From: Parvibaculaceae bacterium Mf 1.05b.01 | Lineage (GTDB): Bacteria > Pseudomonadota > Alphaproteobacteria > Parvibaculales > Parvibaculaceae | Length of the DNA: 64,000 nucleotides | Direction: 5' to 3' | NCBI GenBank assembly: GCA_000509225.1 | Contig: BAOK01000001.1 | Span: forward strand, 1,798,001-1,862,000 | Shown here: positions 16,179-36,259 of the stretch, piece by piece | Layout: each line of letters starts with the position of its first letter | How positions within the stretch are numbered: position 1 is the stretch's first letter | The notes under the pieces: model-generated | What the model was told of the DNA's origin: nothing | What the model saw: the letters and a program-made list of their open reading frames with translations, nothing else | Databases searched by the model: none | Program-made: the position numbers and the translations under genes

Positions 16179-18050
16179 ATGTGCGGCGTAACAGGCTACC
16201 TTAATCTGAACGGCGCACCTGCCGAAACAGACATCGTCGCAAACATGACGAAAGCCGTAGTCCATAGAGGCCCAGATGGGAACGGCGTGGAAATTGATGG
16301 ACCGCTTGCTCTTGGGCATACGAGGTTATCGGTCATCGACCTCTCTAGCCTTGGCCGCCAGCCTATGGAAAGCCACGACGGGCGCTACGTGATTAGCTAC
16401 AATGGTGAGATCTATAATTATAAGGAATTGCGAAGTGAACTAGAGGCATCTGGTGAGGAGTTCATATCCCAGACCGATACAGAAGTCGTCCTTAACTCGA
16501 TTAAACACTGGGGCATCAAATGCATCGAACGTTTCAATGGAATGTTCGCATTTGCTCTATGGGATAGGTGGGAGAAGAAGCTTATCCTTGCGCGTGATCG
16601 GTATGGCATCAAACCACTCTATTTTTCCTTCGTCGGCGACACTCTGATCTTTGGGTCGGAGATTAAGGCAGTTCTTGCCCACCGCTCAGTTCAGTGTCGG
16701 CTTTCGCCAAACGGCCTTGCGGAATACATGTCCTTTCAAAATTTTTTCTCGAAGAACACACTTTTTGAAAATGTGTCACTCTTTCCACGAGCATCCTATG
16801 CAGAGTGGCGCGTAGGCTCCTCACCATCGCTACGCCCTATCCAATATTGGGATTACCAGTTTTATGAAAGCGAGTCTGATCGAAGCGACGAGGACTATGC
16901 CGAGGAAGGAGCGTTCCTTTTTCAACAAGCTGTAAAAAGACAACTCGTTGCAGATGTCCCGGTGGGCGCCTACCTATCAGGCGGCATGGACTCAGGAGCC
17001 ATAACATCAGTTGCGTCAAAAGCGCTTCCGCACCTGCATACATTTACGTGTGGATTTGATCTGAGTTCCGCGTCTGGCATGGAACTGTACTTCGATGAGA
17101 GGTCCGAAGCTGAACGTCTTTCGTATTTATTTAAAACAGAACACTACGAAGTCGTGCTCAAAGCTGGCGACATGGAAAGGGCGTTACCCAGTCTCGCATA
17201 CCACCTCGAGGAACCCAGAGTTGGTCAATCCTATCCAAACCACTTCGTTGCACGGCTAGCGTCCAAATTCGGCAAAGTCGTTTTGTCGGGTGCCGGTGGC
17301 GATGAGATCTTTGGTGGCTACCCATGGCGCTATTACAGGGCAATAGGCCCAAACAAAGGCACGAACTTTACAGAAGACTATTTTAATTTCTGGCAACGTC
17401 TAGTCCCACCTGATCAATTCGACAACCTCCTTCAACCCGTTGCCAAGGACACAAAAGACTTTTCTCCAATCGATGTATTTTCATCGGTGTTTCCGGAAAC
17501 TCCCAATCGAGCGTTGTCAACAAGCGATGCGATAAATTCGTGCATGTATTTCGAAGCTACAACATTCTTACAAGGCCTACTCATCGTAGAAGATAAGATC
17601 AGCATGTCTCACGGACTTGAGACCCGCGTTCCCTTTTTGGACAATGATCTCGTTGATTTCGCAACACGCGTGCCCGTTCGACTGAAAGTAAACGAAATGG
17701 GACATCAGTCACGGATTGATGAGAACGAAATTGCGAAAGGGTCGAAACACTACAAACGCACTAAGGATGGAAAGCTCCTGCTCAGATCGCTTGCCAGCTC
17801 ATTTCTTCCTGAAGATTCCATTCATCGCGAAAAACAAGGCTTCTCTGCTCCAGATGCAAGTTGGTTCAAAGGTGAGAGCATTGACTTCGTGCGGCGAAGC
17901 ATTCTCGACAAAAATGCGAAGATTTACGACTACATTGACTATAAGACCGCGTCGTCGCTGATCACTAGCCACCTTGAAGGCCATGAGAACAGACGCCTTC
18001 TCATATGGTCTCTGCTGAACCTAGAGTCCTGGTGCGAACAATATTTGTAA
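16179..18050 (+). CDS. asnB: asparagine synthase-like glutamine amidotransferase, AsnB-2
   Basis: A 623-residue class II amidotransferase. Cys2 is present (MCGVT), RGPDGNG and YNGEIYN line the glutaminase site, and the ATP-PPi loop SGGMDSG is near residue 266. The region after it, HLEEPRVGQSYPNH and SGAGGDEIFGGY, differs from AsnB-1/-4 (DGQGADE) and from AsnB-3, so a different acceptor is likely. It follows the UPF0104 gene after 114 bp and is followed by an SDR after 18 bp. Probable role: amidation of a sugar carboxyl (uronamide formation) using glutamine and ATP. Confidence 0.93.
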   Translation: MCGVTGYLNLNGAPAETDIVANMTKAVVHRGPDGNGVEIDGPLALGHTRLSVIDLSSLGRQPMESHDGRYVISYNGEIYNYKELRSELEASGEEFISQTDTEVVLNSIKHWGIKCIERFNGMFAFALWDRWEKKLILARDRYGIKPLYFSFVGDTLIFGSEIKAVLAHRSVQCRLSPNGLAEYMSFQNFFSKNTLFENVSLFPRASYAEWRVGSSPSLRPIQYWDYQFYESESDRSDEDYAEEGAFLFQQAVKRQLVADVPVGAYLSGGMDSGAITSVASKALPHLHTFTCGFDLSSASGMELYFDERSEAERLSYLFKTEHYEVVLKAGDMERALPSLAYHLEEPRVGQSYPNHFVARLASKFGKVVLSGAGGDEIFGGYPWRYYRAIGPNKGTNFTEDYFNFWQRLVPPDQFDNLLQPVAKDTKDFSPIDVFSSVFPETPNRALSTSDAINSCMYFEATTFLQGLLIVEDKISMSHGLETRVPFLDNDLVDFATRVPVRLKVNEMGHQSRIDENEIAKGSKHYKRTKDGKLLLRSLASSFLPEDSIHREKQGFSAPDASWFKGESIDFVRRSILDKNAKIYDYIDYKTASSLITSHLEGHENRRLLIWSLLNLESWCEQYL

Positions 18051-18068
18051 GAGACGAAACGAGATCAT

Positions 18069-18950
18069 ATGAAACTCCTTATTGCAGGCGCATCTGGGTT
18101 TATTGGGACCCATGTCCTTCGGCGACTACCATCTGACTGGGAAGTTTTTGCTATCTCGCGAAAACCTATTGCTGCTCCTCCCAACACCACACTCATCAAT
18201 GTCGATCTGACAAATCACGACTTCGCGCGATCTCTGCCCGGTCAGATAGACGCCGTACTGTCACTCGCGCAGTCTGCACACTATGCAGAGTTCCCCGCAA
18301 AGACACGTCAAGTATTCGATGTAAACGTGATGTCTTCCATTTCCTTGGTCGACTACGCCATTCGCGCGCGCGCCTCAACGTTTGTCCATGCCTCGACAGG
18401 CAGTGTATACGAGCCATATGGTGGACTTCTCAAGGAAGATGCTCTGCTGTCACCATCTTCTCTCAACGGCGTTTCCAAGTTCGTCGCTGAGAGGTCACTT
18501 GAGTTATACGACTCGCTCATTGGTCTCTGTTGCCTACGCATTTTTTTTCCATTTGGCCCAGGGCAAAAAAATCGCCTTGTTCAGTTAGTGCATAAACGAC
18601 TTTCCGAATGTCAGCCTGTCGACCTTGACGGTCCAGATGGAATGGTGTTCACCCCGACCTACGTCGAAGATATTGCAGACATAATGGCAACCGCGATCGA
18701 AGAAGGATGGCGTGGAACAATCAATATCGCATCGCAAGAAACTCGGTCGGTACGCTCTGTTGCCGAAGGCATTGCTCACATTCTCGGCGCAAAACCGCAG
18801 TTCAGCCACACCGGCTCACAGAGCACCAATATCACACCCGACACCACGAAGCTGTACACTCTGTATGAACACGCCAAAATGACAGACTTTCAAACAGCAT
18901 TACACGCAACCATAGATTCAATAGCCAATGATGGAACGCTCCCGACATGA
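18069..18950 (+). CDS. NAD-dependent epimerase/dehydratase-like SDR, catalytic Tyr replaced
   Basis: A 293-residue extended SDR. The Rossmann motif GASGFIGTH is intact and the catalytic Ser/Thr is Thr110 in HASTGSVYE. However, the Y-x3-K pair reads N-x3-K: Asn133 (codon AAC at 18,465) and Lys137 in SLNGVSK. Tyr is the general acid/base of almost all SDRs, so this protein may be non-catalytic, use another residue, or serve as a partner. The nucleotide sequence shows no frameshift. Its stop overlaps the start of P2 by 4 bp (ATGA), so it is tightly linked to P2 and AsnB-2. Confidence 0.82.
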   Translation: MKLLIAGASGFIGTHVLRRLPSDWEVFAISRKPIAAPPNTTLINVDLTNHDFARSLPGQIDAVLSLAQSAHYAEFPAKTRQVFDVNVMSSISLVDYAIRARASTFVHASTGSVYEPYGGLLKEDALLSPSSLNGVSKFVAERSLELYDSLIGLCCLRIFFPFGPGQKNRLVQLVHKRLSECQPVDLDGPDGMVFTPTYVEDIADIMATAIEEGWRGTINIASQETRSVRSVAEGIAHILGAKPQFSHTGSQSTNITPDTTKLYTLYEHAKMTDFQTALHATIDSIANDGTLPT

Positions 18951-20854
18951 GCCACAACATACTCTTTCTTTCCAGCACAGCTAACGGTTACACCGCCACT
19001 TCGCATCTGGAACACATCGGAAGCATCAAGCAACATTCCCGCCATAACATTTATTACCACAACTTTGTGTACGACATTGATCCTGACTTCGATTTCACAC
19101 CGTTTGATGTAATCGCGATTGGCCACAACTTCTGGCCCGAAATATTGTCTGCCGAACAACGTTTAGCCATTCGCAACGCACGCGCCGTAAAAATCCAATT
19201 TCTTCAGGATGAATATCAGTTTGTAAGAACGATAAATGGGTACCTGGAAGAGATGGGTATCAATGTCATGTTTACATGTGTCGCAGAGGAAGACTTCGAG
19301 TCCTTTTACCCTAAGAGCATTATGAATTCTTTGATGGAAGTGCAGCAAAACCTGACGGGGTATGTTTCGGATTCGCTTGCTCACCCTCGGAATTTCAAGA
19401 CCGGGCGTCGCAGTGTAGATATTGGCTACAGGTCCAGGGTCAGCCCCTTTTTTCTTGGTAAGCTCGGGCATGAGAAATTGGAGATTTGTGAAAAATTCAG
19501 TGCGATTGCGGACCAAGAAGGCTTTTCTCACAACATCTCAGTCCGTGAAGAAGACAGAATCTACGGCCACGAGTGGATCAAATTTCTTCAGTCAACACGC
19601 GTTCAACTTGGCACCCCCAGCGGGGCAAGCGTTGTCGATATGGACGGCCAAATTGTCGAGGCAGAACTGAATTTCAGACGCGAAAACCCTCATGCCGGGT
19701 TCAATGAATTCTTTGAGAAACACCTCAAGGAGCACGAGGGCAAGCTTGGCATCGATACAATTTCCCCTCGGGTCTTTGAGTATGCAGCTACCGGGGCCAC
19801 GATGGTGATGCATGAAGGCTACTATGGTGGGCACCTGGAAAAGGATGTCCATTACATCTCAGTAAAAAAAGACTACTCAAACATAACGGATGTAGTCGAG
19901 AGGATTGCTGACCAGGCCCATTGTAGAGAAATCGCTACTAACGCCCGTCAACATCTCATATTGGACGGTAACTATTCCTACCAACGCTTTGTCGAAAAAT
20001 TTGATGATGTGGTGGATAGGCACGCCCCTAAGAATACGTTGGTCAAAACAGTCGATGAGATTTCCTTCAACCGAAGTCTTGAAGAAAAGCATGAACAGGC
20101 ACTTTTCTTTGACAAAAAGGGCTGGGCTTTTTCCAACACGCCAACGGGCAAAGCCCTCAAAACAAGGTTCAACAAGGCTGGCAGGCTGAGACATATACCC
20201 ATTGTTGGGAAAACGCTAAAACGCATTGGTGGCGACCCGATCATCAAACTCGAGGAGCTATCCCTGGGTGCTACGCTGGCATGGCGAGTACCCGAATTCA
20301 AAAAACTCATGCATCTTTGGCTCCGCCACAGAAAACAAATGCCGGATATCACTTGGGATCAGCTTCTTAAAGAAATCGTTGTTTTTGGTCTTATTAAGTC
20401 AAGTCAGTCAGGCTTAGTGTATGCACAAACACCATTTCATACCAAAGTGCCACTCGTGCAATCCGACGGTTTCCTAGACATTGTCAGCACTCAATCTGAG
20501 GCTGGTCAGGTGTGTCAACTGTCGGAAACTATAGACTCAACAGTTCCACATCCCCCCGATTTCTGGCTTGAGATCACCGAGCAAATTCGCGAAAAATCAA
20601 TCAATCAACTTCGATGGGATGTGAGCGCCGTTTTCCCAATACTGCAGTTTGGCGTCTGCACGGTGTTCACATATGTGGCGCAAAACTCCTCTATTCAGAT
20701 GCGTTCAGCATCTGATCAATATTTCTACTTTCCAGCGTTCGATCGGCTCATGAAGCTGGATACCGAGTCGGCCGTTTTCGCACTACGTATGGCTCTATCC
20801 GCAGCATACGGTCCTGACCAGCCAGCGTTGGTCAAAAGTTTTGAGGTCACTTGA
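18947..20854 (+). CDS. GT-B-like protein of unnamed family, paralogue P2
   Basis: A 635-residue homologue of P1 and P3. QDEY is at residues 87-90, exactly as in P1; then come TCVAEED, LTGY, IGYRSR, GKLGHEK, EEDRIYG, LGTPSGASV, ISPRVFEY, EGYYGGHLE and HYISVKKDYSN. The last block resembles the donor half of CgeB-like GT-B transferases. The C-terminal 250 residues are unlike P1 or P3 and have no motif I recognise. It sits between the Asn-variant SDR (4-bp overlap) and the WbmS-like deacetylase (start 2 nt after its stop). A cytoplasmic glycosyltransferase or sugar-modifying enzyme is probable. Confidence 0.75.
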   Translation: MSHNILFLSSTANGYTATSHLEHIGSIKQHSRHNIYYHNFVYDIDPDFDFTPFDVIAIGHNFWPEILSAEQRLAIRNARAVKIQFLQDEYQFVRTINGYLEEMGINVMFTCVAEEDFESFYPKSIMNSLMEVQQNLTGYVSDSLAHPRNFKTGRRSVDIGYRSRVSPFFLGKLGHEKLEICEKFSAIADQEGFSHNISVREEDRIYGHEWIKFLQSTRVQLGTPSGASVVDMDGQIVEAELNFRRENPHAGFNEFFEKHLKEHEGKLGIDTISPRVFEYAATGATMVMHEGYYGGHLEKDVHYISVKKDYSNITDVVERIADQAHCREIATNARQHLILDGNYSYQRFVEKFDDVVDRHAPKNTLVKTVDEISFNRSLEEKHEQALFFDKKGWAFSNTPTGKALKTRFNKAGRLRHIPIVGKTLKRIGGDPIIKLEELSLGATLAWRVPEFKKLMHLWLRHRKQMPDITWDQLLKEIVVFGLIKSSQSGLVYAQTPFHTKVPLVQSDGFLDIVSTQSEAGQVCQLSETIDSTVPHPPDFWLEITEQIREKSINQLRWDVSAVFPILQFGVCTVFTYVAQNSSIQMRSASDQYFYFPAFDRLMKLDTESAVFALRMALSAAYGPDQPALVKSFEVT

Positions 20855-20855
20855 T

Positions 20856-21608
20856 ATGATCGCTGAACCGACCATCATTGTTACGCTAGACGTTGATTGG
20901 GCAGCCGACTGGATGATCGAGATGGCAGCAGAGGTCCTTGTCGAACGCGGCGTAAAAGCCACTTGGTTCATAACTCATGAGTCGCCTTCACTGGAAACTC
21001 TAAGGAAAGAACCATTATTTGAACTTGGCTGGCATCCCAATTTCCTACCTAACAGCAGCCATGGCGAAACTCCAGAGGCTGTTCTAACCTTCTGCCAGGG
21101 CCTGGTACCCGAAGCGCGCAGTGTGCGAACACACTCATTATGTCAGTCTGAGAGACATCTGAGCCTAATGGTAGAAGCATTCAACATAAAAAATGATTGC
21201 TCAATCTATTTGCCGGTAGACAGTGCAATAGATGCTCATTCGGTGGGGTATTCAGAGAACGGACCAAAACTCACGCGTGTTCCCCACTTCTTCCAAGACA
21301 ATATGCATATGTACACCGGTAAGAGCTGGGACCTCAGCAGATCTATGCTGGAGCGGACTGGCGTTTTGGTGTTTTGCTTTCACCCAGTCCATATTGCTCT
21401 TAACTCTCTCAATATGGCTCAGTACGAAGAGACAAAAAGAGAGATGAACATCTCCACCATAAAGAAGGAGGACCTCCCTCCCATTGATCATTCAAGCTCA
21501 GGCGCTGGCAAGCTGTTTAGGGATGTCGCTGATTATGCTTCGACAATGTCCGCTGCGACACTTAATGAATATTGCGAGTCTTGGAGATCAGGCAAGATAG
21601 ATGGATAG
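20856..21608 (+). CDS. polysaccharide deacetylase-like protein, WbmS family
   Basis: A 250-residue protein with the CE4-like fold pattern: TLDVDW (Asp12, Asp14) early, GWHPNF with His60, a second histidine in SSHG, RTH, and FHPVH near the end. These metal- and base-type positions and the opening sequence match the WbmS group of polysaccharide deacetylases from O-antigen loci. It has no signal peptide, so it likely acts in the cytoplasm on a nucleotide or lipid-linked N-acetyl sugar. The ATG at 20,856 has GAGG 9 nt upstream; a TTG at 20,841 is less likely. It overlaps the formyltransferase gene by 8 bp, which suggests deacetylation followed by formylation. Confidence 0.82.
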   Translation: MIAEPTIIVTLDVDWAADWMIEMAAEVLVERGVKATWFITHESPSLETLRKEPLFELGWHPNFLPNSSHGETPEAVLTFCQGLVPEARSVRTHSLCQSERHLSLMVEAFNIKNDCSIYLPVDSAIDAHSVGYSENGPKLTRVPHFFQDNMHMYTGKSWDLSRSMLERTGVLVFCFHPVHIALNSLNMAQYEETKREMNISTIKKEDLPPIDHSSSGAGKLFRDVADYASTMSAATLNEYCESWRSGKIDG

Positions 21609-22536
21609 GAAGCTTCGAGTGGCCGTATTGGGCCGCACAGAAATGCTGCTGGATGCCGCAAAACTCGCTCGCGAACGAGGGCACGAAATATCATTTGTCG
21701 CAACCACAGCACATGCCGAAAACTACACTGCTACTCCTAAAGACTTCGAACAGTTCGCGATGGATGTCGGCTGCCCATACTTCCGAGGCACCAAATTGCA
21801 TGAGCCGCATGTTCTAAAGATGATCAAGTCGACATCGAGTGACGTGGCCATCTCCATGAATTGGCCAGTTCTCCTGCCGGGCGTTGTGCGCTCTACATTC
21901 TCCAAAGGGGTATTCAACTCTCATCCTGGCGACCTCCCCAGATACAGAGGCAATGCTTGTCCCAACTGGGCAATCTTGAATGGAGAGGAACACGTCGGTC
22001 TCTGCATCCACGAAATGGTAGATGAACTAGACGCTGGCGATGTAGCAGTGCGCGAGAGATTTCTATTAGAGCCGAACACAGATGTTGCCGATGTATATTC
22101 TTGGCTTCGCAGGCAAATACCCATCTCCTTCAATAAGTTGTTGGATATGATTGCAGCGGATCGTCTTGAACTGTCAGCTCAACCCAAAGACCCAAATCTT
22201 TCCCTACGCTGTTTTCCGCGAAAGGCGGCGGATTCTCAAATAGATTGGGCAGCGAATAGTTTGGATATCCTTCGTCTCATTCGAGCCTCCACCCACCCGT
22301 TTGCAGGTGCATATTGTCACCTGGAACAAACTACTCTCAGAATATGGCGGGCGGAGCCCTTCGAGATGCCCGGTCCCTTCCTCGCAGTTCCCGGTCAAGT
22401 TTTGGGTGACGACAACGGAAAACCCTTGATCGCAACCCCTGACGGTGCGCTAAAGCTCGATAATGTTACCATTGACAGCACGACCGACTGTGCAATCTCC
22501 GAAATTCTAAGCAGCTTAAGAAACAGGCTTACGTGA
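21601..22536 (+). CDS. sugar N-formyltransferase (Fmt/ArnA-N-type)
   Basis: A 311-residue formyltransferase of the Fmt/ArnA N-terminal fold that transfers formyl from N10-formyl-tetrahydrofolate to an amino sugar. The catalytic triad is in place: Asn106 and His108 in NSHPGDLP and Asp144 in DELDAGD. The C-terminal 100 residues resemble the small OB-like domain of Fmt/ArnA. Genuine tRNA formyltransferase is unlikely because the gene overlaps a WbmS-like deacetylase by 8 bp and lies in a glycan operon. The same two activities occur fused in one polypeptide at 26,025-27,446. Confidence 0.85.
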   Translation: MDRKLRVAVLGRTEMLLDAAKLARERGHEISFVATTAHAENYTATPKDFEQFAMDVGCPYFRGTKLHEPHVLKMIKSTSSDVAISMNWPVLLPGVVRSTFSKGVFNSHPGDLPRYRGNACPNWAILNGEEHVGLCIHEMVDELDAGDVAVRERFLLEPNTDVADVYSWLRRQIPISFNKLLDMIAADRLELSAQPKDPNLSLRCFPRKAADSQIDWAANSLDILRLIRASTHPFAGAYCHLEQTTLRIWRAEPFEMPGPFLAVPGQVLGDDNGKPLIATPDGALKLDNVTIDSTTDCAISEILSSLRNRLT

Positions 22537-22624
22537 TAAAGGCGTGCCTCAAGCACTTGTGCTTTTTGCATTATGTCAACAGCTTGAAGGCGGTATGCTT
22601 GCGGTAGTAATTAAGAGATGCACA

Positions 22625-24385
22625 ATGTCCAAACTCAACATCCTGATCATCGCGGACTATCTTCCAGGCGACGCAACTGTCATCCGTGACCACCTATTCT
22701 CCTTTGATCGCTATTCAAACCACCGCGTCTTCCACCTCTTTTGGCCATCGAAACACAAAGATGAAATCGACTTCTCTCATTTTGATGTGGTTATTGTCCA
22801 TTGGTGCATTTACATAACCAAGCTGGGAATTAGTCATCCGTCAATTCCTGCCGCCATGGCAGAGAAGATTAGACAATCCTCAGCTATCAAAGTTCTTTTT
22901 CTGCAAGATGAATATCGACGAATGAATGCCGTTCATGAAGCAATGAACGAACTTGGCATTAATTTGATGATGACTTGTGCATCAAAGGAAACGCGAGAAC
23001 AACTCTACCCTTCCAGAAAACTGCCGTCCGTAGACGGGCTTCATACCGTTTTGACAGGCTACATCCCAGAGTACCTGAAGGCCAGAAGCCAAAGGGTAGA
23101 TGACAACACATCTCGACCAGTTGATATCGGATATAGGTCACGACGCTTACCCTTCAGCCTGGGTAAACTGGGTTATGAGAAAACGCAGATTTATGAGTAT
23201 GTGAGTGTGCGTGCGAAACAGTTGGGCATTCGAACGGATTTATCGATCTCAGAGTCCGAGCGCATATATGGAGATGCCTGGCATGACTTTCTCTTGTCTT
23301 CATACTGTCAGTTAGGCACACCAAGTGGCGCCAGCGTCATCGACTTCACTGGAAAAATTGAAGCTGATGTGAAGACATTCGTTGAGTTGCGACCGTTCGC
23401 ACCATTTGAAGATGTCTATGACACCTTTCTTTCCGATGTAGATGAAAAGTTGATCATCGACACAATCTCACCCAGAGTATTTGAATACACAGCTCACGGT
23501 TGCGTCATGTTGATGACTGAAGGCCACTACGGAGGCCACCTAGAGCCTGGGACACATTATGTGCAGATCAAGAAGGACTTTAGCAATCTAGACATAGCGC
23601 TTGCCGAGGCTATGGAACCAGAGGTTCGCGCGCAATTGCTTGCCAACACTCGTCGTGATTTGATGGACAATGATCAGTTTAGCTACCGGAATTTCGTTGG
23701 ATGGTTCAATCAACTACTGGCCACCGAACACGACTTCATCGCAAGAGGCAAGACGCGACAACGTGCTACGTTATTCCATCTTAAGCAAGCCATCAGCCAG
23801 CAGCACCCTTCTTTGCCAGTCCGCGGATATGAAGTTCTCATTCCTTGGCATATTATTCACAAATTTCAACAACGGATTTCGCGATGGATAGCAGGGCACC
23901 CAAAGCTTGCCCGCACCATAGATGCGACGGCGCTTTTGGTTCGTTCGCCAAAACACTTCCTTTACAGTGCTTATGCGAGCCTGCTTCGCCACAATCCTCG
24001 AGTGCTCAGACTTCACCATATTGCGCTGTCGTTTGTGCGATCCCCGCGACATTTCTTCTCAGATCTAGGTGCGAATCTATCACAACGGTTCCCGAGTGCG
24101 CTTCATGCGTATGGCGCCACGAAGATGGTCATCCTCTCGCCAAGACAGTTCATTTCAAGACTAGGTGCCAAGCTATCAACGCGGCTTCCGAGAGCTCATC
24201 ATGCGTATGGCGCTACGAAGATGTTCATCTCTTCGCCAAGATATTTCATATCGAAACTGCGTGCAAAGCTGTCACAATGGTTTCCGAGTGCGCGCTATGG
24301 GTATGGAGTCGCCAGGATGCTCATCCTCTCGCCGAGGCGCTTTTTCTCCAGACTACACGCGAAATTCACCAAGCATCGTACCTGA
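22625..24385 (+). CDS. GT-B-like protein with C-terminal 32-residue repeats, paralogue P3
   Basis: A 586-residue homologue of P1 and P2. The core carries QDEY (94-97), TCASKE, LTGY, IGYRSR, GKLGYEK, SERIYG, LGTPSGASV, ISPRVFEY, EGHYGGHLE and HYVQIKKDFSN. From residue 441 the chain becomes a tandem array of a 32-residue unit (four full copies and a partial fifth) that neither P1 nor P2 has; the units are basic and aromatic-rich. I chose ATG 22,625 because P1 and P2 begin at the same point of the fold; an upstream GTG at 22,544 would add 27 residues. Last gene of the plus-strand operon; its end faces the GT-B-like gene at 24,416. Confidence 0.76.
   Translation: MSKLNILIIADYLPGDATVIRDHLFSFDRYSNHRVFHLFWPSKHKDEIDFSHFDVVIVHWCIYITKLGISHPSIPAAMAEKIRQSSAIKVLFLQDEYRRMNAVHEAMNELGINLMMTCASKETREQLYPSRKLPSVDGLHTVLTGYIPEYLKARSQRVDDNTSRPVDIGYRSRRLPFSLGKLGYEKTQIYEYVSVRAKQLGIRTDLSISESERIYGDAWHDFLLSSYCQLGTPSGASVIDFTGKIEADVKTFVELRPFAPFEDVYDTFLSDVDEKLIIDTISPRVFEYTAHGCVMLMTEGHYGGHLEPGTHYVQIKKDFSNLDIALAEAMEPEVRAQLLANTRRDLMDNDQFSYRNFVGWFNQLLATEHDFIARGKTRQRATLFHLKQAISQQHPSLPVRGYEVLIPWHIIHKFQQRISRWIAGHPKLARTIDATALLVRSPKHFLYSAYASLLRHNPRVLRLHHIALSFVRSPRHFFSDLGANLSQRFPSALHAYGATKMVILSPRQFISRLGAKLSTRLPRAHHAYGATKMFISSPRYFISKLRAKLSQWFPSARYGYGVARMLILSPRRFFSRLHAKFTKHRT
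23945..24382 (+). repeat. in-frame tandem repeat, 96-bp unit, 4.6 copies
   Basis: Units begin at 23,945, 24,041, 24,137, 24,233 and 24,329, each exactly 96 bp and 32 codons, the last cut short by the stop. Each starts with Ser-Pro-(Arg/Lys)-x-Phe. Units two to four share Gly/Arg-Ala-Lys/Asn-Leu-Ser and a central Ala/Gly-Tyr-Gly motif; the first is diverged. Units two and three also share nearly identical DNA around CATGCGTATGGCG and ACGAAGATG, so the expansion is recent. Amphipathic, basic helices are likely, perhaps for membrane or polyanionic glycan contact. Confidence 0.9.
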
Positions 24386-24415
24386 GACGCCTGACGCCCG
24401 GAATATTCTCTAGCA

Positions 24416-26032
24416 TCAACCGTGATATGTTTCTGGAACATCCAAGCGATGATCTCCAGACAACATGCGATCATATACTCGCTCAAATCTTGCCGCACAT
24501 GCATCAGCTGAATGCCATTTGATGGCATACTCTCTACTCGCCCGGCCAATCCTCTCACGTTCTTCAGGATCAAGTACAAGACGCTTCAAAACGTCGTAAA
24601 CCGTTTCGGTATTAGCATTGATTAGTGGACATTCCTCTAGCGACTGAGACGGTCCAACTTCCAATGGTTGCTCTCGCACGAGTTTCGTAATTGTTGGCTT
24701 GCCCAGCATCATGCTCTCTCGGGAGGCAGCTCCATATCGACCATAAATGATCTGATCTACAACAATGTCCGCCTGAACCTGATAGTACTTCATGTCCTTG
24801 CTGTGAACGTCATGCACGAAGACAAGTTTTACTGGGTACCCTTCTGCTTTAAGGCGGTCGACGGCGTCTAGCACAGCCGGCGTACCCTTGATATTGCGCC
24901 CCTTGTCGTCGCGCGATACATAGTTACCGACCGCGTGAAATATGAGAATTTCTCCATCTTCTTTTTCGAACTTCTTATCTACTGGCACTTCAAGGTCAGG
25001 GTGCCATATCTCATGGTCTAGGCAAAAAGTCAGAGGTTCGCGGTAGGCCCTATCTGTTTTCCGCGATTGGTTAACTACCCAATCTCCTTCGATTGCGTAG
25101 AGATCTGCAAGGTTCTCATACATTTCTCCAATCGCCAGATTTTTTGGATCTGAACACACCTCAGGATTGTCCTGCCACACGCATGTGTCGCATACACCAC
25201 CTGTATATTCATTAAACTCAGTCTGCCCAGTGCCCGTCAAACAGCCGCTCATTGACACACCAAGCTTTACACCCCGGCGTTTGAGATAAATCAGGTCCCA
25301 AGGCGTACGGTCCCGACCGGCATTCTGATAACACTCGTGGAAGATACTTGAGCAATTTTCGTTGTGCCAGAACAACATCCTGGCGTTTTCTTCAACGTAT
25401 CGCATTAGCGAGTAGCATCGTTTCCGCAAGATCGTACTATCAGCATCCCAAATGCTGACATCTTCGCCATGGTAGAAATTTGAACTACTGCTGGATGGGT
25501 CCTCACTTACGATGGAAATTGCATTCCAACCTCTTTTACGCAGCGCGCGCGCCAGGTAGTAGTGGTGATAATAGGAATGGTTAAGAAAGACGACCGACCT
25601 CTGACCTTCTTTGGTTCTAGGCAAACTCTCATAGAGAGCCTTATCAAACGCATGTAGGCCCTTATAAAGTTCCTCCCCCGGCTGCGTGGTAACCAGCGTA
25701 GAGTCTCTTTGCCTAAATCCAAGTTCACGCCTGATGCTGCCCAGACGTGGCCATCTCTCCAAAAGCTTGTGCTGAAGCCAAACTGGTAGGTAGGTAAGCG
25801 CAAAATAGCCAGCCGCGCCCTTCACCTTTTGCGAGAACGTCCGCCAATCAGATGGGTTCGAATACTCTATGAATGGCGGACATAGCTCGGACTTCCCAAA
25901 AAGTAACCTGTTGAGACTAGCTATCGGACCAAGCGCCCAACCTGGGCTCGCAATCGCAAGTTTACGGATAAAAATGCGCCAAGGATTGGGCACCTCGCCC
26001 GGACGCTTCGCATTATTAAAAAGACTACCCAA
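24416..26032 (-). CDS. GT-B-like glycosyltransferase with four-cysteine insert
   Basis: A 538-residue protein. The C-terminal third has a GT-B donor-domain feel: GEILIFHAVGNY, then KGTPAVLDAVDRL, VFVHDV and GRYGAASRESMMLGKPTI, where the last segment is the usual donor-binding glycine/glutamate region. The middle holds an unusual cluster of four cysteines, C-x16-C-x2-C-x8-C, at about residues 262-291, which could bind a metal. The N-terminal 130 residues are basic and hydrophobic without clear motifs. Last gene of the ABC-export operon; it overlaps the upstream fusion gene by 8 bp. Transferase function is inferred, not certain. Confidence 0.7.
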   Translation of the reverse strand: MGSLFNNAKRPGEVPNPWRIFIRKLAIASPGWALGPIASLNRLLFGKSELCPPFIEYSNPSDWRTFSQKVKGAAGYFALTYLPVWLQHKLLERWPRLGSIRRELGFRQRDSTLVTTQPGEELYKGLHAFDKALYESLPRTKEGQRSVVFLNHSYYHHYYLARALRKRGWNAISIVSEDPSSSSSNFYHGEDVSIWDADSTILRKRCYSLMRYVEENARMLFWHNENCSSIFHECYQNAGRDRTPWDLIYLKRRGVKLGVSMSGCLTGTGQTEFNEYTGGVCDTCVWQDNPEVCSDPKNLAIGEMYENLADLYAIEGDWVVNQSRKTDRAYREPLTFCLDHEIWHPDLEVPVDKKFEKEDGEILIFHAVGNYVSRDDKGRNIKGTPAVLDAVDRLKAEGYPVKLVFVHDVHSKDMKYYQVQADIVVDQIIYGRYGAASRESMMLGKPTITKLVREQPLEVGPSQSLEECPLINANTETVYDVLKRLVLDPEERERIGRASREYAIKWHSADACAARFERVYDRMLSGDHRLDVPETYHG

Positions 26033-27446
26033 TGTTTCTACGCCCAGATGTTTCTAGATGCTCGTCATACTCGCGCATCACAGCCCTTGCTCTTCCCAAT
26101 ACCGCCCGCTCAATTCTCTGTTTGGGCGGCAGAGCTTCAGGTAGCCACCAAGCTGGATGGGTCAGCACCTGCAGCCTTTCAAACTCTCCACTCGCGATTA
26201 CATCGTAAATTGGATCATGCCGCCAATAACCGTTGGAGTCTGAGCAATAGCCGTAGTTTTGTCGGAACTCCTTACCATAAGCGTTCTTGAGTCCTCCGAG
26301 GCTGTTCTCATCGAACCTCATCATGTTGCCAGCTGTTGGATCATGGAAACTCACTGCCGACAAAGTCACCCCTAAGTTGGACTCAATCACATGTTTTTCG
26401 TTGGAGATTCTCTCATCCAATCGCTCTTGATCCCAGTCGTCGTCATAAAATCCAGAATCGAAATGGAGCCCGATGCCATGCCCCATTGACTCGATTTCAC
26501 GCACGATCCTCGCGCTCTCTGACTCCAGTAGGTTGTAGAAAGGCAACCGCAAACAAACAAAGTAAGTAGCACAAACACCTTGTACTCTCTCAATTTGAGC
26601 TAACCTCATGGCGCGCTGAAGTGAGTAGTCGACGTCGTGACGCCACAGCACGTGGCGCTCCGCAGGTCGATCCTGGAAAAGAGAGAACTTATAGTTCTCA
26701 GACTTAGCCTGCTCGATAAGTGCTTCATAAGCACTCTCTGTGAAGTCTTTCCACTTCTCATCATCTGAAGACGGGTTAACGTCCTTGCTCGGCACGAGTT
26801 TGTATTGTCGTTGACCAAGTTCTATTGACAAGTTATCGAAATCTGGATGCGCACAAGCACGCTCGCGACGGAGGAGCTCTTCATTATCCATCAACTGATT
26901 CACCCGGCACAGCGCTTGGAAATCCTTACGAGTGCGTTTCTTCCCTTCCCAGTGCAAACCAGACCTTGGCAGTTCATGATCCGAGTCGAACACAATTTCA
27001 ATCAAGCGTTGGAACAGATCAATTCCACAACCCTCTGCTATTTCGAGGAGCTTGTCGGGAGACAACTCTGTCTCAACTGACACCCTGCTCTCAATGAGGA
27101 TCTCGCCAGCGTCGACCCGCTCAGTCATGCGATGTGCCGTTGCTCCATATTCGACGACGTTTTCATACGCAGCGAAATGGTGGGGGTCCCGCCCCGGAAA
27201 CTGCCGGGTTGCAGGGTGTATGTTAATCGCTCGCGTCCCTAGCTGCTCCAAAATATTCTTTGGTACAATCACTCCCGTTCCGAACGAAAGAAGAAAAACG
27301 TCGTGCCACCCTGCATTCCCAGCAGATATGAGTTCTTCCAGTTTGTAAGCAGGAACAATCTCGGAAATTTCTTTTTGAGACTCTGCAATCCTCAAAAGAC
27401 GGTCCATCAAGGTGTCGTTACTCAGAATGATCAAACGCAACTTCAT
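26025..27446 (-). CDS. fused sugar N-formyltransferase and deacetylase-like protein
   Basis: A 473-residue two-domain protein. Residues 1 to about 170 form a formyltransferase domain with Asn75 and His77 in NIHPATRQFPG and Asp112 in RVDAGEI, the catalytic triad. From about residue 255 a polysaccharide-deacetylase-like domain follows, with WRHDVDYS, GLHFDSGFY, SFHDPT and THPAWW supplying the expected Asp and His positions. A cytoplasmic enzyme that removes an N-acetyl group and adds N-formyl on one sugar is the natural reading. The split pair at 20,856-22,536 encodes the same two functions in reverse order. It overlaps WbqC by 4 bp and the next gene by 8 bp. Confidence 0.85.
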   Translation of the reverse strand: MKLRLIILSNDTLMDRLLRIAESQKEISEIVPAYKLEELISAGNAGWHDVFLLSFGTGVIVPKNILEQLGTRAINIHPATRQFPGRDPHHFAAYENVVEYGATAHRMTERVDAGEILIESRVSVETELSPDKLLEIAEGCGIDLFQRLIEIVFDSDHELPRSGLHWEGKKRTRKDFQALCRVNQLMDNEELLRRERACAHPDFDNLSIELGQRQYKLVPSKDVNPSSDDEKWKDFTESAYEALIEQAKSENYKFSLFQDRPAERHVLWRHDVDYSLQRAMRLAQIERVQGVCATYFVCLRLPFYNLLESESARIVREIESMGHGIGLHFDSGFYDDDWDQERLDERISNEKHVIESNLGVTLSAVSFHDPTAGNMMRFDENSLGGLKNAYGKEFRQNYGYCSDSNGYWRHDPIYDVIASGEFERLQVLTHPAWWLPEALPPKQRIERAVLGRARAVMREYDEHLETSGRRNIG

Positions 27447-28150
27447 TGCCCTCCTGCTGGTTTACCAATGTCCCAGTCGTTTTCCTTCATCAGAAAGTCA
27501 ATGATGGATAGACCTGGCATGAAGGTTTCTAGTTCTTCGTTTCCATATGGAAACGGTTTAAAGTTTTGGTATACCAACTTGATGTTGTTCTCCGCGAATT
27601 TTGCATCCTCCTGGTAGCCTTCAGCACCACCACCGCAGAGGTACGTATCACAACCAACCGCGCTGCAAAGCTCGATCAACAACTCTGTGCTCGCGGCACT
27701 CGTCTCGAGCTCAGATTGCCTAAAGAACCGTGTCTCTAGTTCCAGTGTTTTGCTGATCTCCATGATCGTATTGATGTTAAAATCCGATATATCAAGAGCA
27801 TTCATGTTTATCAGGGGCTCGAGCAATGACATCGCACGTGTGAACCCTGGTTGCCGTCCGTAACTTGACTTCAGCGTTTCGATAGCAGCAACACGCCAAT
27901 TCGTATCCTCTGACAGGAACACTTCATTGATCTTGGTGCCTAAGGGTGCCTTTTGTACCGGACAGCGGAACCAAGCTTCGCGGTCGCCAACATCAATTTT
28001 TACTCGGTTACACCAGGAAGCCATGCTTTTGCTGCCCGACCGAGGATAGTCGACAGCATCGAGAAAAATGAACACGTCCGCCCGGCAGATCTTGTCGAAG
28101 TAGCCCATCCACGGAAAATAGTTCGGCTGATGAATTGCGCAGACCGTCAT
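27443..28150 (-). CDS. WbqC-like family protein
   Basis: A 235-residue protein opening with AIHQPNYFPWMGYFDKI, the signature of the WbqC-like family (PF08889) found in O-antigen and capsule loci. DAVDYPRSG and NRVKI follow as in other members. The biochemical role of the family is not established as far as I know; association with modified amino sugars has been noted. It lies 15 bp after the ABC ATPase gene and overlaps the formyltransferase-deacetylase fusion by 4 bp, so it may act in the same sugar modification. Confidence 0.85.
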   Translation of the reverse strand: MTVCAIHQPNYFPWMGYFDKICRADVFIFLDAVDYPRSGSKSMASWCNRVKIDVGDREAWFRCPVQKAPLGTKINEVFLSEDTNWRVAAIETLKSSYGRQPGFTRAMSLLEPLINMNALDISDFNINTIMEISKTLELETRFFRQSELETSAASTELLIELCSAVGCDTYLCGGGAEGYQEDAKFAENNIKLVYQNFKPFPYGNEELETFMPGLSIIDFLMKENDWDIGKPAGGQ

Positions 28151-28165: not shown

Positions 28166-28918
28166 CTATCCCGCCTGCTCGTAAGCATCGATTGCTTCAT
28201 CTACATCGCCAAAAAACTGAACCTTACCCTTGTCAAGGTAGAGAGCCTTATTGCAGAAGGTTCGTATTACATCGTTGGAGTGAGACGCCAGGACCAGAGT
28301 ATTAGCCGAAGACATGAGCTTCTCAATGCGGTTATGTGCCTTCGACGCAAACTTGGCATCTCCGGCACCAATGATCTCGTCAACAATCAATATGTCTGGC
28401 CTAATCGAGGTTGCAATCGCAAAAGACAGTCTTACCGACATACCTGACGAATATGTCCTCACCGGCATGTAGAGGTATTGCCCCAACTCACAGAACTCAG
28501 CGATATCGGGAATTATCGCTCGCATCTGACGACGGCTCAGCCCTAAATACAAGCCGCTGGTCATAATGTTCTCGTAACCTGTTTCCTCTGGGTCAATCCC
28601 AACGCCCAACGTCAGCAACGAGCTTACGGTCCCGTTGGTCTCCAACACGCCGCCAGATGGGTGATAGCCGCCGGCCAACACCTGCAACAAGGTCGACTTT
28701 CCGGCGCCATTCGGTCCTACCAGGCCAACACTATCACCCGGGTACATCTCCAGATTGATATTCGATAGGGCCTGAATGGTCGTGCGCCCTCCGGTAGACG
28801 AGTCGTTGCGTATCAACCCGCCCACGCCATTTTTCATTACTATTCGCCGAAGGCTTCGGTCTGGGTCATAGATCGGAAACTCAACAGACACAGAATCCAA
28901 CTTAATTGTGGGCTTCAT
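28166..28918 (-). CDS. wzt: polysaccharide ABC exporter ATPase, Wzt/KpsT-like, no C-terminal sugar-binding domain
   Basis: A 250-residue ABC ATPase of the polysaccharide-export group. Walker A is GPNGAGKST, the signature appears as SSGMSVRL, Walker B is ILIVDEI, and the H-loop is in ASHSND. The N-terminal extension FPIYDPDRSLRR is typical of KpsT/TagH/Wzt proteins. It ends soon after the ATPase core, so it lacks the C-terminal carbohydrate-binding domain of Wzt proteins that recognise a chain-terminating cap. The ATG at 28,918 matches the family start; a TTG at 28,975 would overlap the permease by 41 bp. It powers export of the finished glycan with the adjacent permease. Confidence 0.9.
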   Translation of the reverse strand: MKPTIKLDSVSVEFPIYDPDRSLRRIVMKNGVGGLIRNDSSTGGRTTIQALSNINLEMYPGDSVGLVGPNGAGKSTLLQVLAGGYHPSGGVLETNGTVSSLLTLGVGIDPEETGYENIMTSGLYLGLSRRQMRAIIPDIAEFCELGQYLYMPVRTYSSGMSVRLSFAIATSIRPDILIVDEIIGAGDAKFASKAHNRIEKLMSSANTLVLASHSNDVIRTFCNKALYLDKGKVQFFGDVDEAIDAYEQAG

Positions 28919-28934
28919 AACAAACCAAAAACCT

Positions 28935-29747
28935 CTAAAGCCAATAGGACAACCGACGAAAAAACCGTCCGGCAACAGCGATAGTCATCATCAAACCAAC
29001 CAGCAGCGAGACGCTGAGGTAAATGTATGAAGAAGTACTGGGCATCATACCAATTAGCGGCTGGCGAATAACATCAACCATGTGGAACAAAGGATTCGCT
29101 GTAACCAGAATGAACTCAGCAATCGGTTGCGACGCGATCCGGTCGGCCGGCCAGAATATTGGGGTGACAAAGAACATGACTTGCATGATGCTTGCCACCA
29201 CCTGCATAACGTCCCGAAACCGCGTGCAAACAGTCGCAATAAAAATACCAACCCAAAGACAATTCAACACCGTCAGTAATAGTCCAGGGATAAACAGCAG
29301 ATTAGTCCAACTCAATCCATTTCCAATGAACAATAGGACCAACAAGTGGATGGTCAACGAATGCCCAAATACCAAAATGTTCCGCCACAAGACTCGCAAA
29401 ACATGGATCGCGTAGGGCATCTTATAAGACCGGATGATATCTTGGCCTGCCAGGAACGCGCCACAACTCTCATTGGTGTTGGCGACAATCAGCGACCAAG
29501 ATATGAAACCAGCGGAAAAGTATGGAAGAAACCCGGTAAGATCCACACCCCATAAAATCGAATAGACCGCGCCCAGGGAAAATATGAGCACACCGGCGCT
29601 CATGACTGTCCAGAACGGCCCCAGTACCGTTCTGCGGTAACGGGCTCGTATATCGCGCCATCCTAACGCCAACCAAAGCTGTGCAATTGAGAATGACCTA
29701 TAAAGATCATTGAAAATCAGAGCGGCGTTTTGATTTCCTATGTTCAA
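28935..29747 (-). CDS. wzm: polysaccharide ABC exporter permease, Wzm-like
   Basis: A 270-residue ABC-2-type permease with about six membrane segments. The N-terminal cytoplasmic part holds LAWRDIRARYRRTVLGPFW-like sequence (ALGWRDIRARYR), the classic Wzm/KpsM/TagG entry motif. ANPLFHMVDVIRQPL near the C-terminus is also family-typical. With the ATPase gene 16 bp downstream it forms the exporter that carries lipid-linked polysaccharide to the periplasm. It is the first gene of the minus-strand operon to 24,416 and faces AsnB-3 across a 413-bp divergent region. Confidence 0.9.
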   Translation of the reverse strand: MNIGNQNAALIFNDLYRSFSIAQLWLALGWRDIRARYRRTVLGPFWTVMSAGVLIFSLGAVYSILWGVDLTGFLPYFSAGFISWSLIVANTNESCGAFLAGQDIIRSYKMPYAIHVLRVLWRNILVFGHSLTIHLLVLLFIGNGLSWTNLLFIPGLLLTVLNCLWVGIFIATVCTRFRDVMQVVASIMQVMFFVTPIFWPADRIASQPIAEFILVTANPLFHMVDVIRQPLIGMMPSTSSYIYLSVSLLVGLMMTIAVAGRFFRRLSYWL

Positions 29748-30160: not shown

Positions 30161-32077
30161 ATGTGTGGAATTGCGGGTATTGTGAGTTTGCGGGGAGAAA
30201 CCATTCCGCGCCTGTCAGACGCTCTCACAGTGATGGGCCAATTGCTTGAGCATCGGGGCCCCGATGACGACGGGCAATGGGTCGCCCCCGACAGCAGCGT
30301 AGGTTTTGCTCACAGAAGGTTAAGCATATTGGACCTCTCACCGGCGGGCCACCAACCCATGATCGGTGAAAATGGCACGGTAATCGCCCACAATGGTGAG
30401 GTTTACAATTACCTGGAGCTGCGCGACCGCCTCAAGGACCGGTGGGTCTTTAAAAGTACGAGTGATACAGAGACCGTCCTGGCTGCGTATGACATTCACG
30501 GCGCTGATTTCGCACAACAGCTTCGCGGAATGTTCGCAACAGCCATTTATGATCAGCGCACCAACAAACTTACTCTGGTCCGAGACCGCTTCGGCATAAA
30601 ACCTATCTACTACACGATCGACAAAGACATACTCTTTTTCGCTTCGGAGGCGAAGGCACTTCTTCCCTTCCTTCCAGACATCAAGACCGATACAGAGTCC
30701 TTCGCAGAGTACCTTACATTCCAGTATTGCATTGGTGAGCAGACCCTATTCAAAGGGATCAAGCAGCTTATGCCTGGGCACATGCTGGTAGCCGAAACCG
30801 GCTCACCAATTCAGGTCAAGAAATATTGGGATGTTGAGTACAACATCGATTACGACCACTCACCCAAATACTTCGAAGATAGGTTCCAAGAGCTTCTGAT
30901 GGATTCCATGAAGCTCCACCTGCGAAGTGATGTCCCGGTAGGGAGTTACATGTCGGGTGGGATTGACTCCAGCCTGATGGCGATCCTGGCCGCTGAGCAC
31001 GACCATCAGAACAGAGACTGTTTTCATGGGAAATTCACCCAGTTTCCTGGATATGACGAAAGCAAATATGCGTTAGATGCGGCAGAGGTTTCCGGGTCTA
31101 TCCTGCATCAGGCTGACATCACGGCCCAAGATTTCGAAAATTCGATCGAAGATGTGATCTACCATTTGGACTTTCCCACTGCAGGGCCTGGATCTTTTCC
31201 GCAATACATGGTGTCGAAATTAGCAGCTGAAAAAGTCAAGGTCGTTCTCGGTGGTCAGGGCGGAGATGAAATATTTGGCGGCTATGCCCGCTACCTAGTT
31301 GCCTATTTTGAACAGTGCATCAAAGCAGCGCTCGATGGCAGCTATCACGATGGTCACTATGTCGTAACGATTGAATCGATCATTCCAAACCTTGGCCTGC
31401 TGCGCGAGTACAAGCCAATGATCAAAATGTTCTGGCAAGAGGGCTTGTTCGAAGACTTAGATGCTCGCTACTTCCGCCTAATTGATCGTTCAAATGACAT
31501 GACGGATGAGATTGACTGGAATCAGTTGAACAAGGGTCAAGTTTTTGATTCTTTCAGACAGATTTTCAACAAATCAAATGTCGGTAAGGAAGCCTATTTC
31601 GACAAGATGACGCATTTTGACTTTAAGTGCTTACTTCCTGCCCTGCTCAATGTGGAAGACCGCATGGCAATGGCCCATGGTCTGGAGTCTCGCGTTCCGT
31701 TTCTCGATCATCCACTGGTTGAATTTGCCGCCACGGTCCCTGCAGATGTTAAATTCGAGGGCGGGAACATGAAACATCTCATAAAGCAGTCTTTTGGAAA
31801 CAAGCTTCCACCCTCCATTACAAACCGTCGCGATAAGATGGGCTTCCCCGTCCCGCTTAAAGAATGGTTCGGAGGCGAGTTAAAAGACTTTGTTACGGAT
31901 ACATTTGGCCAAAAGAACGCACAGCACAGACCCTTTATGAACACCGATCGGATTGCTGAGGGCCTTGGTGCTGAACTCAAATTTTCCCGTAAAACGTGGG
32001 GTTTGCTCAGCCTGGAGATTTGGCATCAAAAGTTTCACGACCGTGCGGCGCACTGGAAGAAGATGAACCCATTGTAA
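30161..32077 (+). CDS. asnB: asparagine synthase-like glutamine amidotransferase, AsnB-3 (WbmI-like)
   Basis: A 638-residue class II amidotransferase. Cys2 (MCGIAG), RGPDDDG, HNGEVYN and the synthetase loop SGGIDSS (about residue 265) are intact. The following region, HLDFPTAGPGSFPQY and GGQGGDEIFGGY, sets it apart from the other three copies. It heads a four-gene block with three SDRs that resembles the wbmI-wbmH-wbmG-wbmF set of the Bordetella O-antigen locus, where the glycan is a 2,3-diacetamido-uronic acid, partly amidated. The same job, uronamide formation, is likely here; orthology is from memory of those families and needs alignment. Confidence 0.93.
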   Translation: MCGIAGIVSLRGETIPRLSDALTVMGQLLEHRGPDDDGQWVAPDSSVGFAHRRLSILDLSPAGHQPMIGENGTVIAHNGEVYNYLELRDRLKDRWVFKSTSDTETVLAAYDIHGADFAQQLRGMFATAIYDQRTNKLTLVRDRFGIKPIYYTIDKDILFFASEAKALLPFLPDIKTDTESFAEYLTFQYCIGEQTLFKGIKQLMPGHMLVAETGSPIQVKKYWDVEYNIDYDHSPKYFEDRFQELLMDSMKLHLRSDVPVGSYMSGGIDSSLMAILAAEHDHQNRDCFHGKFTQFPGYDESKYALDAAEVSGSILHQADITAQDFENSIEDVIYHLDFPTAGPGSFPQYMVSKLAAEKVKVVLGGQGGDEIFGGYARYLVAYFEQCIKAALDGSYHDGHYVVTIESIIPNLGLLREYKPMIKMFWQEGLFEDLDARYFRLIDRSNDMTDEIDWNQLNKGQVFDSFRQIFNKSNVGKEAYFDKMTHFDFKCLLPALLNVEDRMAMAHGLESRVPFLDHPLVEFAATVPADVKFEGGNMKHLIKQSFGNKLPPSITNRRDKMGFPVPLKEWFGGELKDFVTDTFGQKNAQHRPFMNTDRIAEGLGAELKFSRKTWGLLSLEIWHQKFHDRAAHWKKMNPL

Positions 32078-35128: not shown

Positions 35129-36259
35129 TCAGCCTTTCAAGGCACCTGCTACCGCATCGATCACTCTGTCTTGTTCAGCTTCACCGAGGTAGGGGTGCAT
35201 TGGGAGGCTCAGCACCTTGCCGGACAAAGCGTCCGATACCGGGGTACCCCCGGATACCGATGGAAAGTGCTTGTACCCAGTCTGCTGCGACAGAGCCATT
35301 GGGTAGTACACGACCGTTGGCACGCCGGCTTCTTTGCAGTGAGCTTGAATATTATCTCGGTTTTCTACAATCAAGGTGTACTGCGCCCAAACGGATGTAG
35401 CTCCATCCATTAACTTCGGTGTTCGAGCGACACCCTTTAGTCCCTCGGCGTACCGAGCTGCGACACGATCACGTGCCTCCACTTCGCCTGGGAATATGGC
35501 GAGCTTTTCTTTCAAGATCGCAGCTTGGATCGTGTCCAGGCGCGAATTCATCCCAATGCGAACATTGTCGTACTTCTGGCTGCCTTTACCATGGAGGCGA
35601 ATTGAGTTAATAACCGCAGCCAGGTCATCATCATCGGTAAAGATTGCACCGCCATCGCCGTAACATCCTAGCGGTTTGGCTGGGAAGAAGCTGGTGGTAC
35701 TCGCATGCCCCCAGGTTCCCACCCTCTTATTGTGGAGCGTTGCGCCAAAACTCTGCGCAGCGTCGACAAGTATCTTAATGCCATGTTTTTCCGCTATACG
35801 CTGAATTTCCGGCACGTTAGCAGGCTGGCCGAACAGATCCACAGGGACCACAACCGATGGAGCGAGCCCCTGCTCGGTTGCATCACCGATGGCCTTCGCA
35901 AAACTATCTGCATCAATGTTGAAGGTCGCTTCATCTACATCGACAAAAAAGGGCGTTGCGCCCAACATTGCAACCACCTCTGCGCTCGCCACATAGGTGA
36001 ACGAGGGGACAAACACCGCGTCGCCTGGTCCAACCTCCCATGCCATCAGAACAACTGCCAAGGCATCCGTTCCATTGGCGCAGCCGAAGGCATGAGTGGC
36101 ACCGGTAAAGTCTGAAAGCTGTTGTTCAAACTCCTTTACCTCGGGCCCCATAATGTATTGCCCGTGATCGAGGACACGTGCGATACCCGCATCGACCTTG
36201 TCTCGTATCTTCGCTTGCTGAGCCGCGAGGTCGATGAACTGTATTGGTTGGTTGCTCAT
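35129..36259 (-). CDS. wbpE: UDP-3-keto-GlcNAcA aminotransferase, WbpE-like
   Basis: A 376-residue DegT-family PLP aminotransferase. The PLP-lysine segment SFFPAKPLGCYGDGGAIF is the WbpE/WlbC signature, and TYVASAEVVAMLGA and GCANGTDAL are further family marks. In Pseudomonas WbpE transfers an amino group from glutamate to C3 of UDP-3-keto-GlcNAcA. Its neighbours encode exactly the other steps (WbpB-WbpD fusion 8 bp upstream, then WbpA and WbpI), which makes the substrate assignment strong. It is the last gene of the minus-strand operon beginning at 41,732. Confidence 0.92.
   Translation of the reverse strand: MSNQPIQFIDLAAQQAKIRDKVDAGIARVLDHGQYIMGPEVKEFEQQLSDFTGATHAFGCANGTDALAVVLMAWEVGPGDAVFVPSFTYVASAEVVAMLGATPFFVDVDEATFNIDADSFAKAIGDATEQGLAPSVVVPVDLFGQPANVPEIQRIAEKHGIKILVDAAQSFGATLHNKRVGTWGHASTTSFFPAKPLGCYGDGGAIFTDDDDLAAVINSIRLHGKGSQKYDNVRIGMNSRLDTIQAAILKEKLAIFPGEVEARDRVAARYAEGLKGVARTPKLMDGATSVWAQYTLIVENRDNIQAHCKEAGVPTVVYYPMALSQQTGYKHFPSVSGGTPVSDALSGKVLSLPMHPYLGEAEQDRVIDAVAGALKG

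Follow-up and report, generated by a model that had tools for sequence, protein, structure and literature searches.

Why should a single bacterial locus hold a deacetylase and an N-formyltransferase twice over, once as two adjacent genes and once as two domains of one protein? The question is raised by a 64,000-nucleotide stretch of the genome of Parvibaculaceae bacterium Mf 1.05b.01 (contig BAOK01000001.1, positions 1,798,001 to 1,862,000), herein called the window. The answer that we favour, with modest confidence somewhat above even, is that both modules deacetylate and then formylate the same nitrogen, acting on activated amino sugars of the locus. The features concerned are the following.

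20856-21608, plus strand: gene for a predicted WbmS-like CE4-type deacetylase, 250 amino acids (aa), ATG start (PF22537, 3hft)
21601-22536, plus strand: gene for a predicted ArnA/Fmt-like N-formyltransferase with C-terminal domain, 311 aa (PF00551 and PF02911)
26025-27446, minus strand: predicted bifunctional fusion of an N-formyltransferase (aa 1 to ~206) and a CE4/NodB-fold deacetylase (aa ~229-473), 473 aa in a single open reading frame
26829-27446, minus strand: formyltransferase half of the fusion (PF00551; triad N75-H77-D112; without PF02911)
26028-26762, minus strand: deacetylase half of the fusion, CE4/NodB fold (R269-H270-D271-x-D273, G-H323-x4-H328, S-F-H368, S-D403-S, L-T-H430-P-x-W-W)

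The domain order of the fusion, formyltransferase then deacetylase, is the reverse of the gene order in the pair, whose members share 8 bp (21601-21608). Open reading frames, profile matches and structure prediction agree with the initial annotation on the coordinates, the overlap and the opposite order. The genome search that it had proposed for the same fusion recovered full-length orthologues in the congeneric metagenome-assembled genome Rhodobiaceae bacterium SP61 (54% identity) and in Hyphobacterium indicum 2ED5 (43%). A sequencing error or frame artefact is ruled out as the cause, since the two domains are fused in all three orthologues; the fusion is real and old. Among the three, identity is 50-63% in the deacetylase domain, 36-45% in the formyltransferase domain and 14-24% in the weakly conserved linker, making the deacetylase the better conserved of the two domains. 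Sets of catalytic-type residues appear intact in both halves of the fusion, as they do in the pair, and together with the three fused orthologues they uphold the proposal that the fusion links the two functions. In Hyphobacterium indicum the fusion C-terminus is present a second time as a remnant of 73 aa (L065 13285-13503).

Neither module is a copy of the other, the two drawing both their formyltransferase and their deacetylase from different subfamilies. In the pair, the deacetylase gene, which has an in-frame TTG 15 bp upstream of its ATG, encodes a protein that matches the PF22537 profile end to end (3.7e-55; 187.2 bits against a cut-off of 27; profile positions 1-186 of 186) and the solved Bordetella WbmS (3hft) at 1.8e-32. 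The WbmS motifs D-x-D-W, H-P-N-F, R-x-H-S and F-H-P-x-H, conserved in 10 relatives, are present as T-L-D12-V-D14-W, E-L-G-W-H60-P-N-F, R91-x-H93-S-L and F-H176-P-x-H, and the product is a predicted WbmS-like metal-dependent N-acetyl deacetylase. Its partner scores above the cut-offs of both PF00551 (1.4e-16) and PF02911 (7.9e-15), carries the N-H-D triad as N106-H108-D144 and has the formyltransferase domain of ArnA as its closest solved relative (8e-22); it is without a UDP-glucuronate decarboxylase fusion, the gene stopping after the C-terminal formyltransferase domain.

The formyltransferase half of the fusion, also above the PF00551 cut-off (2.5e-11), is of the short VioF/QdtF/LgrA type, with sequence matches to VioF, 4nv1 and LgrA. 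Modelled over its full length, the fusion gave a structure of low quality (pLDDT 67), whose list of structural matches was taken up by this half: residues 1-167 match sugar N-formyltransferases and the formylation domain of LgrA, with QdtF at a VIA Z of 13.8 over 155 residues (3.7 Å). Both formyltransferases of the locus are predicted sugar N-formyltransferases using N10-formyl-tetrahydrofolate. They can be aligned over just 74 residues, with 22% identity, and this divergence, together with the different deacetylase families, rules out that one module arose recently by duplication of the other.

Because the formyltransferase half dominated the whole-fusion list, the deacetylase half was folded alone. 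The resulting model (pLDDT 76, pTM 0.75) has a CE4/NodB fold; all 16 Foldseek matches at E ≤ 0.001 are CE4-type enzymes (best E 4.2e-05), and CE4 deacetylases head the VIA list, with PplD at the top (Z 12.6, 176 residues, 3.4 Å), ArnD at Z 10.5 (165 residues, 3.6 Å) and WbmS 3hft at Z 10.0 (177 residues, 5.3 Å). A PDB search with a six-member profile likewise returned CE4-type deacetylases only (best 5e-4). Across 24 aligned relatives, R269, H270, D271, D273, H323, H328, H368 and H430 show no or almost no variation, and position 403 is Asp or Glu; the catalytic-type D-x-D (D271, D273) and the late L-x-H histidine (H430) of CE4 enzymes are both present. The fusion C-terminal part misses the PF01522 threshold (14.2 bits against a gathering score of 23.1; E 0.12, or 0.044 for the domain alone), and neither the fusion nor the members of alignment A1 match PF22537. 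Alignment of the fused-type family to the WbmS family reaches an hhalign probability of only 69%, over 89 columns. The fused deacetylase is a CE4-like subfamily distinct from the WbmS-like PF22537. Describing the two modules as the same two activities is acceptable, as is WbmS-like for the pair, but the fused deacetylase lacks the PF22537 match and the formyltransferases belong to different subfamilies.

Family searches in the window's own genome counted four PF00551 genes, two of which lie outside the locus with purN- and fmt-like scores and lengths. The other two are the formyltransferases described here, each adjoining or fused to a deacetylase. As both non-housekeeping members are coupled to deacetylases, chance does not explain the association.

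The fusion is rare. Relatives of its formyltransferase half occur in 27 of 385 sampled genomes of the class and relatives of its deacetylase half in 22, and among the inspected neighbourhoods from this sample the fused form was found only in the window. A family-level search of 40 genomes recovered it in the window's genome and SP61 only; a first scan of genome contigs with a single protein as query gave no match, nor did a scan of viral contigs. PF22537 is itself uncommon across the phylum (8/398 genomes). A formyltransferase adjoins the WbmS gene in five of these eight (the window, L055, L057, L058 and L061), and also in SP61 and Hyphobacterium; none was seen at L059 or at L060, a locus at a contig end. 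At L056 the WbmS relative sits instead with methyltransferase and asparagine-synthase-like genes. A WbmS-like gene on a Lawsonia intracellularis plasmid lies between a methyltransferase gene and an asparagine-synthase-like gene, with no formyltransferase gene adjacent (L044 7956-10643). The WbmS-like gene at L061, in genome G379, is broken over two frames beside an intact formyltransferase gene (5645-6459).

What, then, would the two modules act upon? The locus encodes a predicted pathway to a UDP-2,3-diacetamido-2,3-dideoxy-uronic acid (WbpA, WbpB-D, WbpE and WbpI), and four amidotransferase-like genes stand in the same window.

35129-36259, minus strand: WbpE gene (5e-111)
36268-37821, minus strand: fused WbpB-WbpD gene, 517 aa (acetyltransferase half against 3mqg, 8.8e-63)
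37837-39246, minus strand: WbpA gene of the UDP-2,3-diacetamido-2,3-dideoxy-uronic acid pathway
39382-40491, minus strand: WbpI gene, matching the UDP-2,3-diacetamido-2,3-dideoxy-glucuronic acid (UDP-GlcNAc3NAcA) 2-epimerase (1.9e-128)
5049-6953, 16179-18050, 30161-32077 and 42105-44057: four asparagine-synthase-like genes

In the WbpA-B-E-D pathway the C-3 amine is free until WbpD acetylates it, and the C-2 nitrogen is already acetylated, coming from UDP-GlcNAc. A deacetylase is therefore needed only if the formyl group is to be placed on the C-2 nitrogen, and since that nitrogen arrives acetylated, the most likely product is a 2-formamido sugar. Where relatives of the fused deacetylase occur as free-standing proteins, the gene is the direct upstream neighbour of WbpB in 9 of the 20 loci fetched and adjoins WbpB/D/E genes in 2 others; on haloarchaeal and sphingomonad plasmids such relatives stand beside acyltransferase genes in polysaccharide clusters. 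These settings tie the family to 2,3-diamino uronic acid synthesis. The four asparagine-synthase-like genes could make uronamides; two of them that were compared share just 32% identity, which suggests several different amidation acceptors. A precedent for such a product is the O-antigen of P. aeruginosa O6, which contains N-formyl-galactosaminuronic acid adjacent to a uronamide (PMC10609480). The WbpB-type oxidoreductase and the WbpD-type hexapeptide acetyltransferase, fused in the window, are likewise fused in SP61.

We propose that the locus would make a surface polysaccharide containing 2,3-diamino-2,3-dideoxy uronic acid or uronamide residues. It would do so with two independent acyl-exchange modules, one formed by overlapping genes of the WbmS/WbmT type and the other by two domains of one chain. 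In the cytoplasm, a metal-dependent CE4-type deacetylase would first strip an activated amino sugar of an N-acetyl group. Its partner formyltransferase would then add a formyl group from N10-formyl-tetrahydrofolate to the freed amine, before or during chain assembly. Pathway logic places the formyl group probably on the C-2 nitrogen. Acetyl removal, the order of the steps, the C-2 position, the nucleotide-sugar stage and the use of different substrates by the two modules are all points that we infer. In its most specific form the proposal is tentative, and we rate it somewhat below even: a single acyl-swap enzyme would replace the C-2 N-acetyl group of a UDP-2,3-diamino uronic acid by N-formyl, the free amine being passed between its domains, and the second pair, of other subfamilies, would do the same on another sugar of the polysaccharide. 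The initial annotation had the exchange performed twice, on different substrates; the different enzyme subfamilies and their joint retention in three genomes speak for this only indirectly.

The fusion serves as a ‘Rosetta stone’, suggesting a likely function for an uncharacterised CE4-like family whose genes, in many bacteria and in some haloarchaea, adjoin those for UDP-diacetamido-uronic acids. To our knowledge, the origin of 2-formamido sugars from N-acetylated precursors has not been established biochemically, and with the fused enzyme the acetyl-to-formyl step can be tested directly on a single purified protein.

The neighbouring genes are those of a surface-polysaccharide cluster.

16179-20854, plus strand: asparagine-synthase-like amidotransferase, NAD-epimerase-like and glycosyltransferase-like genes, upstream of the WbmS gene
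24416-26032, minus strand: glycosyltransferase-like gene with weak GT-B matches, sharing 8 bp with the end of the fusion gene
27443-28150, minus strand: WbqC-like gene, the upstream neighbour of the fusion, with a 4 bp overlap (PF08889, 6e-56)
28166-28975, minus strand: Wzt-type ABC exporter ATPase gene (PF00005, 3.2e-18)
28935-29747, minus strand: Wzm-type ABC exporter membrane gene, assigned from synteny

The order Wzm-Wzt-WbqC-fusion is common to the window, SP61 and Hyphobacterium. All three genomes also hold a separate WbmS-like gene with an adjoining formyltransferase gene nearby, on the strand opposite to the fusion (the Hyphobacterium WbmS matches PF22537 at 3.5e-13), so that the fusion is located between Wzm-Wzt-WbqC and the pair. 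SP61 keeps the whole run of amidotransferase, epimerase, glycosyltransferase, WbmS and formyltransferase genes, and the glycosyltransferase-like gene at 24416-26032 has stayed a neighbour of the deacetylase not only there but also in G194 and G063. In G194 the same gene set is found with the deacetylase and formyltransferase unfused, on either side of the orthologue of that gene. A second glycosyltransferase-like gene, at 22544-24385, has no counterpart in SP61, where just ~34 bp separate its neighbours; in the window its C-terminus holds an in-frame tandem repeat (24065-24333; period 96 bp, or 32 aa; 2.8 copies). We also weighed a chain-terminating cap that Wzt would recognise; at 269 aa this Wzt is short, which makes a cap-binding domain unlikely.

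Three observations weigh against an acyl exchange in both modules. The initial annotation had argued from the fusion to an N-acetyl to N-formyl exchange; the diacetamido uronic acid pathway and the four amidotransferase-like genes fit this, but among the 20 loci with relatives of the fused-type deacetylase a formyltransferase lies within ~6 kb in only 1. With these relatives mostly lacking a nearby formyltransferase, formylation is not required for their function, and exchange would be one use of the family rather than its definition. Second, CE4 motif 2, H-(S/T)-x-x-H, is altered in the fused deacetylase, which has Gly instead of His at +4 from H328, so its metal site is probably rearranged; conserved H323 and H368 may substitute for the lost ligand. 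Loss of metal-ligand residues had been named as grounds for doubt, and judged from the alignment the D-x-D and four histidines appear conserved while the second histidine of motif 2 is gone. Third, ArnA and ArnD use the same two folds with deformylation chemistry.

The scarcity of nearby formyltransferases, set beside the frequency of WbqC, places a scheme with two nitrogens among the strongest rivals, although we regard it as unlikely. The deacetylase would free one amine, which might stay unmodified, be methylated or receive another acyl group, perhaps through WbqC, and the formyltransferase would formylate another, never-acetylated amine (C-3 or C-4) on the same or another sugar. WbqC lies within ~6 kb of the fused-type deacetylase relatives in 8 of the 20 loci, against the single locus for formyltransferase, and at L081 (9460-10656) a WbqC-like domain is fused behind a GNAT acetyltransferase domain; both observations hint that WbqC may act in amino-sugar acylation. 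The WbmS relatives beside methyltransferases (L056 and the Lawsonia plasmid) would suit the scheme too, as would the solved relatives of the fused formyltransferase, whose targets are 3-amino or 4-amino groups on dTDP-sugars. Formylation at C-3 or C-4, however, would need no deacetylase, and a nitrogen common to both enzymes is the simplest account of why each module couples a deacetylase directly to a formyltransferase.

A transient formylation of the ArnA/ArnD kind is also among the strongest rivals, since ArnD is a deformylase with a CE4 fold (PMC12650200). The formyltransferase would tag an amino sugar nucleotide for use by a glycosyltransferase, and the NodB-fold partner would then deformylate the product to a free amine. 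The closeness of the pair's formyltransferase to the ArnA domain, the structural match of the fused deacetylase to ArnD (Z 10.5) and the glycosyltransferase-like genes directly beside both modules all agree with such a course. In one polypeptide acting on one substrate, however, it would run as a futile cycle if no transfer came in between; relatives of the fused deacetylase domain mostly lack a formyltransferase and adjoin genes for N-acetylated sugars, and some WbmS relatives have methyltransferase neighbours but no formyltransferase. We consider this course improbable. That the deacetylase half is a CE4 pseudoenzyme, a scaffold or binding module in a protein that only formylates, is very improbable: such pseudoenzymes exist, BA3943 being among the structural matches, and the missed PF01522 cut-off and altered motif 2 would accord with one, but the D-x-D and four catalytic-type histidines vary little or not at all among the 24 relatives and the deacetylase is the better conserved half of the fusion.

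Deacetylation followed by formylation of one nitrogen, the reading that we prefer, has partial parallels in several known systems. VioF, QdtF, FdtF, WlaRD and PseJ share the fold and N-H-D triad of the N-terminal half of the fusion. These enzymes have no deacetylase domain, and their substrates are amines made by aminotransferases, not by deacetylation. The closest precedent for the separate pair is WbmS/WbmT of Bordetella, where a PF22537 deacetylase stands in an O-antigen locus and WbmT is, we presume, a formyltransferase; the window differs in holding an additional module of other subfamilies, with both activities in one protein. In the Bordetella wbm locus the two genes have been handled jointly as wbmS/T (PMC3849452), and the wbm locus of other isolates has predicted formyltransferase, aminotransferase, methyltransferase and asparagine synthase genes (PMC12243275). 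ArnA and ArnD place the same two folds in one pathway, with the formyltransferase inside a bifunctional protein; there, however, the partner domain is a dehydrogenase/decarboxylase and ArnD is a separate protein, whereas in the window the CE4-fold domain is itself the fusion partner. The O-antigen of P. aeruginosa O6 resembles the predicted product in having a 2-formamido uronic acid beside a uronamide (PMC10609480), but unlike the window's predicted product it contains no diamino uronic acid. In the literature searched we found no published description of a formyltransferase-deacetylase fusion, which does not prove that none exists, and as far as that literature shows the architecture is new. 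The component folds are known, and plausibly the chemistry too, while the single-protein version and the doubling of the module appear to be new.

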